A stretch of 39,868 bases of DNA, taken from the NCBI GenBank assembly GCA_016869215.1, contig VGEP01000039.1, positions 1 to 39,868 on the forward strand. The letters are read 5' to 3'. The position numbers were made by a program, and so were the translations under genes. Source of the DNA: Alphaproteobacteria bacterium. Its GTDB lineage: Bacteria; Pseudomonadota; Alphaproteobacteria; Rhizobiales; Xanthobacteraceae. The notes under the pieces were generated by a model. That model was given only the letters and a program-made list of their open reading frames with translations, ran no database searches and was not told the origin of the DNA. Of the stretch, positions 6,786 through 8,537 are shown piece after piece (the first letter of the stretch is position 1; each line of letters opens with the position of its first letter).

Positions 6786-7553
6786 ATGCCCGCCGAGATC
6801 AAGCTGTTTCCCTGCCTGAAGGACAATTACGGCGTCCTGATCCGCGACACCGAAACCGGCCGGACCGCCGCCATCGACGCGCCGGAAGCCGCGCCGGTGG
6901 AGGCCGCACTCAAGACCGCCGGCTGGAAGCTCGACGACATCCTGGTGACGCACCACCACGGCGACCACACCGGCGGCATCGCGGAGCTGAAGCAGAAGTA
7001 CAAGTGCCGCGTGGTGGCGCCTGCGGGCGAGGCGTCGAAGATTCCGCTGGTCGACGAGACCGTGCGCGAGGGCGACACGGTGAAGGTCGGCAATCTCACA
7101 GCCAACGTGATCGAGACGCCCGGCCACACCGCGGGCCACATCACGTTCTGGTTTCACGGCGAGAAGGTCGCGTTCGCGGGCGACACGCTGTTCTCGATCG
7201 GCTGCGGCCGGGTCATCGAAGGCAGCGCGGAGACGATGTGGGCCTCGCTGAAGAAGCTGCGCGACCTGCCCGGCGACACGCAGGTCTATTGCGGCCACGA
7301 ATACACGCTGGCGAACATCAAGTTCGCGCAGACGATCGAGCCCGGCAACGCGGCGCTTGCCGCGCGCGCCAAGCAGGCGGCCGATCAGATCGCGGCGGGC
7401 AAGCCGACGATTCCGACCACCATCGACGAGGAGAAGGCCGCGAACGTGTTCCTGCGCGCCGACGTGCCCGCGGTCGCGGCCGCGGTCGGACTTGCGGGGA
7501 AATCGGCGGCGGAGGTGTTTACGGAAGTCAGGGCGAGGAAGAATAAGTTTTAG
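6786..7553 (+). CDS. gloB: Hydroxyacylglutathione hydrolase (glyoxalase II)
   Basis: Hydrolyses S-lactoylglutathione to lactate and glutathione, the second step of methylglyoxal detoxification in the cytoplasm. It has the metallo-beta-lactamase fold with all expected metal ligands: His56, His58, Asp60 and His61 in THHHGDHTGG, His114 in TPGHTAGHIT, Asp133 in FAGDTLF and His171 in YCGHEYT. The 255-residue length is usual. ATG 6786 has GAGGAG a few bases upstream. A repeat lies in the region before it and a palindrome pair begins seven bases after the stop. The glyoxalase I gene is not in the window. Confidence 0.95.
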   Translation: MPAEIKLFPCLKDNYGVLIRDTETGRTAAIDAPEAAPVEAALKTAGWKLDDILVTHHHGDHTGGIAELKQKYKCRVVAPAGEASKIPLVDETVREGDTVKVGNLTANVIETPGHTAGHITFWFHGEKVAFAGDTLFSIGCGRVIEGSAETMWASLKKLRDLPGDTQVYCGHEYTLANIKFAQTIEPGNAALAARAKQAADQIAAGKPTIPTTIDEEKAANVFLRADVPAVAAAVGLAGKSAAEVFTEVRARKNKF

Positions 7554-7559
7554 CCGCTC

Positions 7560-7609
7560 GTGTCCCGGGCGACCCCGGCGCTAAGCCGGGGAGACCCGGG
7601 ACCCCGGTT
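7560..7609 (+). repeat. Nested palindrome, left flank of the GIY-YIG gene
   Basis: Outer stem GTCCCGGG/CCCGGGAC encloses an inner stem CCCCGGC/GCCGGGG with loop GCTAA. The ends GTGTCCCGGGCGA and GAGACCCGGGACCCCGGTT recur exactly, inverted, at 7922-7960. The block ends 15 bases before the GIY-YIG ATG. It may also act as a terminator for gloB. Confidence 0.85.
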
Positions 7610-7624
7610 GAGTCGGAAGCACCG

Positions 7625-7921
7625 ATGCCGACGTTCTATGTGTACATTCTCGCAAGCCGCTATCGCGGCACGATGTATGTCGGCGTCACGAACGATCTCA
7701 GCCGAAGGATGGGCGAACACAAATTTGGAGTCGTTCCGGGATTCACAAGGCAATACAAAGTGAACCGCCTCGTCTACTTCGAAGCCTACACTTCGATCCT
7801 AGAGGCTCGCGCGCGCGAACGGGCGCTGAAGCGCTGGCATCGCGACTGGAAATTCAAGATTATCGAAGCGATGAATCCGGATTGGCGCGAGTTAACGCCA
7901 AGCCTGATTGCGGTCGTATAG
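7625..7921 (+). CDS. GIY-YIG nuclease superfamily protein
   Basis: Small single-domain protein of 98 residues of the type annotated as a putative endonuclease. The GIY and YIG strands appear as YVYILAS (residues 5-11) and MYVGVTNDLSRRMGEHK (17-33), with the conserved Arg27, Glu31-His32 and a candidate metal-binding Glu65 in ARERALKRW. The C-terminus ends in the family's NPDWREL segment. ATG 7625 is the only suitable start; no strong ribosome site is visible. The gene is packed between two inverted copies of a palindrome: the left ends 15 bases before the ATG and the right begins at the base after the stop. Its biological role is unknown. Confidence 0.85.
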   Translation: MPTFYVYILASRYRGTMYVGVTNDLSRRMGEHKFGVVPGFTRQYKVNRLVYFEAYTSILEARARERALKRWHRDWKFKIIEAMNPDWRELTPSLIAVV

Positions 7922-7960
7922 AACCGGGGTCCCGGGTCTCGCTCCGCTCGCCCGGGACAC
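7922..7960 (-). repeat. Palindrome, right flank of the GIY-YIG gene
   Basis: Inverted copy of the left flank (7560-7609). It starts at the base after the GIY-YIG stop codon. Stem GTCCCGGG/CCCGGGAC holds a loop that, on the minus strand, reads CGAGCGGAGCGAGA. This loop resembles that of the palindromes at 32507-32630, although the stem sequence differs. Confidence 0.85.
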
Positions 7961-7970
7961 GCGCGCCGCG

Positions 7971-8537
7971 TCAATCCTTCGCGCGCTCCACGTACGACCC
8001 GTCCTCGGTCATCACCACGACGCGGGTGCCGGTGTCGATGAACGGCGGCACGTTGGTGCGAACGCCGTTGGAGAGCTTCGCCGGCTTGTACGACGACGAC
8101 GCGGTCTGGCCCTTGGTGACCGGCTCGGTCTCGACGATCTCCAGCACCACCTTCTGCGGCAGCTGGATCGCCACCGCGTTGCCTTCGTGCATGCTGAGCA
8201 TCACCTTCATCTCGGGCTGGAGATAGAGCTTGCCGTCGCCGACCAGGTCCTCCTGCAGGGTGATCTGGTCGTAGGTCTCCGAGTTCATGAAGTGGTAGCC
8301 TTCGGCGTCGCTGTAGAGGAACGTAAAGTCGCGGTCCTCGACCACGGCGCGCTCGACCTGGTCGGTGGTCTTGTAGCGCTGCGACATCTTCACGCCGTCG
8401 CTGATGCGGCGCATGTCGATCTGGGTGGTCGGCGTGCCCTTGCCGGGATGGAAGCTCTCGGCGGTCAGAACGACGCAGAGCCTGCCGTCGAGATCGAGAA
8501 CGTTGCCCTTGCGGACCGAGCTGGCGATAACCTTCAC
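7971..8537 (-). CDS. efp: Translation elongation factor P
   Basis: EF-P binds stalled ribosomes and rescues translation of polyproline stretches. The 188-residue protein has the three-domain layout: a KOW-like N-terminal domain and two OB domains. The tip of domain I carries Lys33 in FHPGKGTP, the residue that matches the modified Lys34 of E. coli EF-P. Genes for both modification enzymes lie close by: epmA starts 110 bases away on the opposite strand and epmB lies further on. This implies beta-lysylation rather than rhamnosylation, which needs Arg here. The gene converges with the GIY-YIG gene across a palindrome. Confidence 0.96.

Follow-up and report, generated by a model that had tools for sequence, protein, structure and literature searches.

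A GIY-YIG gene between two inverted palindromes

The DNA analysed (hereafter the window) was a stretch of 39,868 nucleotides from an alphaproteobacterial genome, and unlabelled positions refer to it. The junction between the convergent genes gloB (6786-7553, plus strand) and efp (7971-8537, minus strand) was occupied by a unit with the following parts:

7559..7961, plus strand: whole unit (palindrome, GIY-YIG gene and inverted palindrome, 403 bp), its edges set by conservation over 30 copies from its own genome
7559..7609, plus strand: left palindrome (REP), head outward and tail CCCCGGTT facing the gene
7625..7921, plus strand: GIY-YIG nuclease gene (98 aa, Pfam PF01541) of the palindrome-associated clade A
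7922..7961, minus strand: right palindrome (REP), inverted, tail facing the gene and head outward

The left palindrome was composed of a CGTG head, a stem-loop core (7563-7601) and the tail, and ended 15 bases before the ATG; the right one began at 7922, the very next base after the stop codon (7919-7921). The inner arms of the inverted repeat (7591-7609 and 7922-7940) were 19 nt long and 100% complementary, and the outer arms (7555-7572 and 7948-7965) were 18 nt long with 94% complementarity. Both palindromes were predicted by ViennaRNA to form hairpins, with ends common to both and unlike middles. The ORF, its Pfam match, the arms, the hairpins and the coordinates confirmed the original prediction of a GIY-YIG gene boxed in by two inverted palindromes, including their spacing from the gene, shared ends and differing middles. 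The window also contained two tail-to-tail doublets without a gene, made up of other CGTC types (10803-10829/10888-10914 and 32510-32552/32593-32627).

The encoded protein

The window protein matched the Pfam GIY-YIG family with an E value of 3.7e-15 and a score of 56.4 bits, the cut-off being 22.6. This was its sole Pfam domain, with no extra DNA-binding domain of the NUMOD type, and no NCBIfam family matched it. An AlphaFold2 model (mean pLDDT 87.9, from an alignment of 49 sequences) was nearest to the UPF0213 structures 1zg2 (E 2.9e-4) and 1ywl (E 6.3e-3) in the PDB, followed by weak matches to Slx1 structures (E 0.015 and above), and I-TevI was absent among the 50 fold matches listed. Residues Y7, Y18, R28 and E65, presumably the catalytic residues of the GIY-YIG domain, were invariant in the 49 sequences, as was N84. 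Values of dN/dS were between 0.05 and 0.10 in eight close nuclease pairs, a rough estimate with dS above 1 (saturated in L031/L032; the pair L036/L062 was left out for a frame error), and by this measure the gene appears to be under strong purifying selection.

A survey of 2006 groups prokaryotic single-domain GIY-YIG proteins with Slx1 and lists "no C-terminal Asn" for this prokaryotic Slx1-like group (PMC1564403). Taken together, the UPF0213/Slx1-like fold of the model and this placement suggest that hairpin or branched DNA may be the substrate.

Palindrome copies and doublets in the source genome

The pattern TCCCGGGCN{3,30}GACCCGGGA had 31 matches in the 5.15-Mb genome and the reversed pattern had none, so the recurrence of the palindrome is not due to chance; for the CGTC pattern there were 56 matches vs. 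one for its reversed form. Alignment of 30 copies gave the consensus C-GTG-TCCCGGGC...GACCCGGGA-CCCCGGTT, conservation dropping outside CGTG and past the TT that ends the tail. In a strict motif test, an inverted partner was found within 80 nt on the tail side of 16 of the 30 copies and on the head side of none (random 80-nt windows score 2.9%); the two window copies were among the 30, and neither scored because the gene lies between them. Under a looser rule 22 of 28 copies (window pair excluded) formed doublets of 102-158 bp (about 130 bp); the L001 doublet was doubtful, and L004, which adjoins a second nuclease gene, had no doublet. As partners occurred on the tail side and not on the head side, the dispersed unit is a tail-to-tail palindrome doublet; in the gene unit, which is such a doublet too, the gene takes the place of the spacer.

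The longest word shared by the two ends of 22 doublets averaged 4.36 nt vs. 4.19 nt after shuffling (113 of 500 shuffles as high), so no target-site duplication is claimed. A doublet at L238 (5380-5530) was bordered at each end by the 8-nt direct repeat ATGACCTC, and separated two genes whose stop and start overlap in two relatives.

Palindromes beside homologous genes

A set of relatives comprised 61 genomes (the window's own plus 60), 47 of which had a nuclease match at E ≤ 1e-3. Seventy homologue loci were taken from it, most of them being the best-ranked matches as far as about E 2e-23, a set that omits some loci of similar E as well as partial and remote matches. An inverted repeat with a score of at least 15 spanned the gene (within 200 bp) at 55 of these loci, and CGTC hairpins were detected on some side of 44 and on both sides of 30. 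The hairpin detector required a GTC head and an 8-bp stem, so that the window's own type and short stems escape it and all hairpin counts are low. The palindromes varied with lineage and paralogue, many being of the CGTC type (for example, CGTCATTGCCGGGCTTGACCCGGCAATCCA). At L236 (G038:C84:6275-6685) a nuclease remnant (E 2.1e-4) lay between two inverted CGTC palindromes and looked like a unit decaying into a doublet.

A scan of named genomes, many of them MAGs, yielded at least 584 confirmed loci, of which the best 80 were kept; these included Rhizobium, Caulobacter, Lysobacter, Massilia, Kangiella, Nitrospinae, Armatimonadetes and Hanstruepera. Inverted repeats scoring at least 15 spanned the gene at 46 of the best 80 loci, the other 34 failing this test, vs. 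13 of 799 other ORFs from the same loci (≥ 100 aa and > 600 bp from the gene) and 9 of 288 short ORFs. CGTC hairpins were present on both sides at 45 of the 80 loci vs. 10 of the 799 other ORFs, and on at least one side at 64; at most of the remaining 16, visual inspection revealed a palindrome whose stem was shorter. The nearest palindrome turned its tail to the gene in 39 of 54 cases upstream and 44 of 55 downstream. Where palindromes lay on both sides (45 loci), both tails faced the gene in 29, both heads in 5, and the orientation was the same in 11.

An even draw of 120 genomes from within the phylum gave 32 with a match at E ≤ 1e-12, in 58 places; 34 full-length close homologues and 10 remote ones were tested, a selection that omits 6 places from genomes covered earlier and 8 partial matches. 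Among the 34 close homologues, 26 had a hairpin on some side, 15 on both sides and 17 an inverted repeat scoring at least 15, and 6 had neither hairpin nor inverted repeat. The 10 remote GIY-YIG genes had no hairpin, and 3 had an inverted repeat of that score. Reading of the flanks showed palindromes adjoining the homologues of Neisseria gonorrhoeae, Planktothrix, Spirosoma, Aeromonas and S. meliloti, and in Photobacterium the nearest lay more than 100 bp downstream. In pSymB of S. meliloti Ak57 (L116, around 1050-2050) a palindrome array held a partial 3' copy of the nuclease beside the whole gene. The proposed link between gene and palindromes, against which homologues lacking them would speak, was borne out in all three sets, most homologues carrying them.

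Pairing of nuclease and palindrome types

Arms were usable at 58 of the 70 loci, and the other 12 were dropped. Of the 456 untied comparisons that these loci gave, 424 joined the closer nuclease paralogue to the more similar palindrome and 32 did not (3 ties). Shuffling the arms among paralogues within genomes gave 50%, with no value as high in 1000 trials; the comparisons draw on overlapping loci and lack mutual independence, which the shuffles take into account. With the 23 pairs showing any outer-flank similarity excluded, the result was 385 of 416 (31 against; 0 of 2000 shuffles as high); the outer flank extended about 300 bp per side for 40 loci, so that some synteny may go undetected. 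By these comparisons, the match between nuclease and palindrome is specific to the paralogue.

Were REP-rich intergenic gaps simply a shelter for a small selfish gene, with protein and palindrome functionally unlinked, a paralogue-specific match would not be expected, and the synteny-excluded test strongly disfavours this. Several palindrome families did visit the same junctions, as a shelter would allow, but other ORFs of the same loci were seldom flanked in this way and other small GIY-YIG clades (see below) lacked two-sided palindromes; we regard the shelter explanation as highly improbable.

Palindrome density in genomes with and without the nuclease

The 43 genomes that have the nuclease showed a median CGTC-pattern density of 13.6/Mb, vs. 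5.1/Mb for the 18 that lack it (MWU, p 0.002). Density rose with gene number, tallied by hand, with Spearman coefficients of 0.54 overall, 0.68 in the genus and 0.55 in the family, and this correlation was absent in the order-level set (0.25, p 0.23). Within 37 genomes of the family, each of four palindrome types was denser in the presence of its cognate nuclease (one-sided p 0.010, 0.004, 0.005, and 0.007). The cognate labels were assigned manually, on the strength of motifs in the flanks or of closeness to the window protein, so that the flanking copies themselves count in the density. Kinship between genomes is ignored in all of these density statistics, which express correlation only.

Exceptions were found in both directions, and a strict dependence of the palindromes on the nuclease was rejected. 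Genome G014 held 28 window-type copies with a remote GIY-YIG match only; G010 and G021 (30 and 24 copies) had no nuclease labelled window-type, other clade-A nucleases being present; and G030 had 113 CGTC-pattern matches and no nuclease match. Conversely, window-type copies were zero in G007, G035, and G036, 3 of the 14 genomes whose nuclease was labelled window-type or near. G058 had CGTC palindromes and no nuclease match, and was rejected as a clean counterexample, the pairs examined sitting in a longer repeat about 80-93% alike; this repeat is dispersed and some 400 bp long or longer, and the pairs within it (L218-L235, L237) had fixed spacing. The possibility that palindromes are equally common without the gene failed as regards density, in the overall comparison as in the four types, but dependence was not absolute (G014 and G030, and in the reverse direction G007, G035 and G036). 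We are highly confident that the GIY-YIG nuclease is a dedicated partner of its palindrome family.

Occupied and empty sites

The gloB-efp junction was compared in 10 genomes of the genus, a species-level comparison in which the direction of gain or loss is inferred. The unit was at this site in four (G002, G006, G009, and G007, the last with a frameshifted gene). It was empty in G001, where one base and no palindrome separated the stop codons, and in G004 (about 45 bases). G008 and G010 had other CGTC palindromes without a gene, and at this point G003 had another neighbour and G005 a contig end. G004 (5 bp) as well as G008 (2 bp) lacked a gene-less doublet located at G000:C49; in G010 its place was taken by one from a different family, and no junction was obtained at the G009 locus. 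Where the genome has its second gene unit (C2:77.3 kb), G008 had a doublet of another family instead, and five other genomes gave no junction. Sinorhizobium K101 kept a palindrome at the position of the Ak57 nuclease, where the gene was absent; this pair was rejected as an empty site, the array region having no clean junction.

These junctions bear on two further explanations. Palindromes acting as bidirectional transcription terminators, or as stabilisers of the mRNA of their neighbours, would suit a convergent gloB/efp junction and GC-rich hairpins, and REPs are described as mostly downstream of genes and plausible RNA elements by Di Nocera (2013). Nevertheless, a T run after the stems was absent by eye, G001 has the two stop codons one base apart with no palindrome, and the pairing with nuclease types would be unexplained; we consider such a role very unlikely to be the explanation, and it may be a side effect. 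A homing-type nuclease that cuts palindrome-free alleles and is copied in by recombination would account for empty alleles at the same gloB-efp site, and GIY-YIG domains are found in homing endonucleases according to the 2006 survey (PMC1564403). It is equally improbable: palindromes and gene-less doublets were at many unrelated sites, the nearest folds were UPF0213 and Slx1 with I-TevI missing from the matches listed, and the short protein had no added DNA-binding domain in Pfam.

Recent transposition of the gene was rejected, since copies of the gene within a genome were at most 79.4% identical; the closest pair between genomes (L036 in G001 and L062 in G002) reached 91.6%. No strain-level movement was seen. 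The low identity within genomes and the low dN/dS indicate that the gene is selected and long-resident. It looks, from these sequence comparisons, like a long-resident, trans-acting gene of the RAYT kind and not like a recently jumping minimal element. RAYT genes are likewise selected and long-resident. With this correction, and with the palindrome doublet as the unit that disperses, the idea of a mobile or repeat-maintenance unit is supported.

A role in maintenance or policing, in which Slx1-like or SbcCD-like cutting of replication-stalling REP hairpins or cruciforms co-evolves with the palindromes without spreading them and the flanking copies serve as cis signals or substrates, would account for most of the data equally well. 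The UPF0213/Slx1-like fold, the strong purifying selection with a long stay at one site, and the persistence of palindromes where the gene was not found all agree with it. Maintenance alone leaves unexplained, however, the frequent flanking of the gene by inverted palindromes, the polymorphic doublets and the higher palindrome density with the gene, and we consider it unlikely, though the most plausible of the alternatives.

Other GIY-YIG clades

Remote GIY-YIG control loci split into clades, and the three remote genes with inverted repeats led to the pairing of clade B with a second palindrome family, CTGAG...TCGAAG. This motif flanked 8 of 9 clade B loci (both sides in 6) and, in a new search, 8 of 10 (both sides in 6). 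The two sets share 3 loci and comprise 16 distinct ones; as the motif was defined after the first nine, the 7 new loci are the fair test, and 5 of these had it, 3 on both sides. It was found at none of the 80 clade A loci and at 17 of 800 random positions, never on both sides. A KGWSRxKKEALI-like motif was observed in clade B (L207, L210, L314, L316-L318, L320, L321, L323, L324-L333).

Among the 18 loci of clades C and D, CGTC hairpins lay on one side in 3 and CTGAG...TCGAAG in 1, and neither was on both sides at any, so that the link between nuclease and palindrome is clade-specific. A tree built from 68 chosen rows set each of the four clades (A to D) apart by a branch supported at 98/98 or better; it did not resolve how the clades are ordered, and its bootstrap had not settled. 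Five clade D genes (L199, L204, L206, L208, and L215) followed a tRNA-Ala-like gene in 5 of 5 loci by eye.

Proposed mechanism and relation to known systems

The comparisons above show the anatomy of the unit, the pairing by family, the number of copies, the organisation in doublets, the empty sites and the purifying selection; hairpin binding, cleavage and movement resulting from cleavage we infer as parts of one mechanism. A stand-alone Slx1-like GIY-YIG endonuclease would be the dedicated enzyme of one REP palindrome family, each paralogue serving its own. It would recognise its palindrome in the folded hairpin form (single strand or cruciform) and nick at the unpaired ends, either the CGTG/CGTC head or the CC tail. 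Through such nicking, REP doublets (two inverted REPs, heads outward, with a short spacer, about 130 bp) could be excised or copied in trans and re-inserted into intergenic gaps with no regular target-site duplication. The nuclease gene, housed in a doublet in the place of the spacer, would be held at one site for a long time by selection, and gene-less doublets would multiply meanwhile. The statement as a whole, in which a RAYT-like and Slx1-like nuclease of hairpins serves its cognate REP doublets in trans, seems to us probable.

With somewhat less assurance, at slightly better than even chances, GIY-YIG nucleases may be a second, unrelated class of enzymes founding and driving REP/REPIN populations, clade A being the enzyme of the CGTC-tagged REPs and clade B that of CTGAG...TCGAAG, so that REP systems of differing chemistry arose at least twice. 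As part of this joint reading, and held with the same slight preference, clade A may reach from Alphaproteobacteria to Neisseria and, by flank reading, also to a cyanobacterium and Bacteroidota. If true, the evolution of REP populations would have taken place twice, each time with an enzyme unrelated to the other, and a role would be found for many proteins whose sole annotation is "GIY-YIG nuclease family protein". No published link of GIY-YIG proteins to REP, REPIN or palindromic repeats was found in the open-access literature searched, and "GIY" is absent from the main text of RepRanger 2025 (PMC12306157).

The window protein belongs to the GIY-YIG superfamily by its domain with Tyr, Arg, and Glu, and shares with the UPF0213/prokaryotic Slx1-like proteins (1zg2 and 1ywl) a single GIY-YIG domain, these being its nearest solved structures. 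UPF0213 proteins are hypothetical in the PDB titles and predicted repair enzymes in the 2006 survey (PMC1564403), and the open-access literature searched yielded no link of theirs to palindromes. Eukaryotic Slx1-Slx4, whose substrate is branched DNA, resembles the window protein in a weak match of the GIY-YIG fold but differs in having a RING domain and an Slx4 partner (PMC1564403) and in being a host repair enzyme. Two other classes were rejected: a classical insertion sequence, there being no general direct repeats at the doublet ends and gene copies at most 79% identical, and a GIY-YIG homing endonuclease, the protein having 98 aa and no NUMOD-type domain beside GIY-YIG in Pfam.

CGTC-tagged REPs (Di Nocera, De Gregorio, and Rocco, 2013), which include Neisseria dRS3, appear to match the palindromes of the homologues, with a CGTC/TGTC head, a stem and a CCA tail. 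They are defined by an unpaired CGTC, TGTC or CCTC head, a stem of 8-9 bp and a CCA tail; a CGTC-type hairpin was found at 64 of the best 80 loci and at 26 of the 34 close homologues, and many dispersed copies were found here too (31 window-type and 56 CGTC-pattern). Those of the window itself form a diverged type that has a CGTG head, a longer loop and a CCCC tail. CGTC-tagged REPs are reported in all alphaproteobacterial orders and in five phyla and, as stated there, apparently without a dedicated transposase, a question left open in that paper (PMC3733652). Here, in contrast to their description without a dedicated enzyme, a nuclease is tied to them, and the clade A nuclease is a strong, and the best, candidate for the enzyme so far missing, by which CGTC-type REPs would be spread or maintained. 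The 2006 survey asks whether more GIY-YIG proteins are molecular parasites (PMC1564403); a palindrome-matched nuclease of 98 aa joins that question to the one on CGTC-REP enzymes.

The closest parallel in organisation is REP/REPIN with RAYT (the REPtron), with its high-copy palindromes, dispersed inverted doublets, cognate palindromes flanking the gene and one paralogue per family. Cognate REPs repeated in the genome flank the nuclease gene here, and inverted REP doublets with a short spacer, the REPIN concept as given in PMC3116915, are the main organisation under both the strict and the looser rule. The difference lies in the enzyme, which is GIY-YIG and not an HUH/Y1 tyrosine transposase (no such domain was found in the window protein by Pfam or fold, which gave GIY-YIG only), and in the tags, which are CGTC-like instead of GTAG. 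The likeness to REP with RAYT, but with another nuclease family, first proposed for this locus is supported by the flanks, the repeats, the pairing and the GIY-YIG fold.
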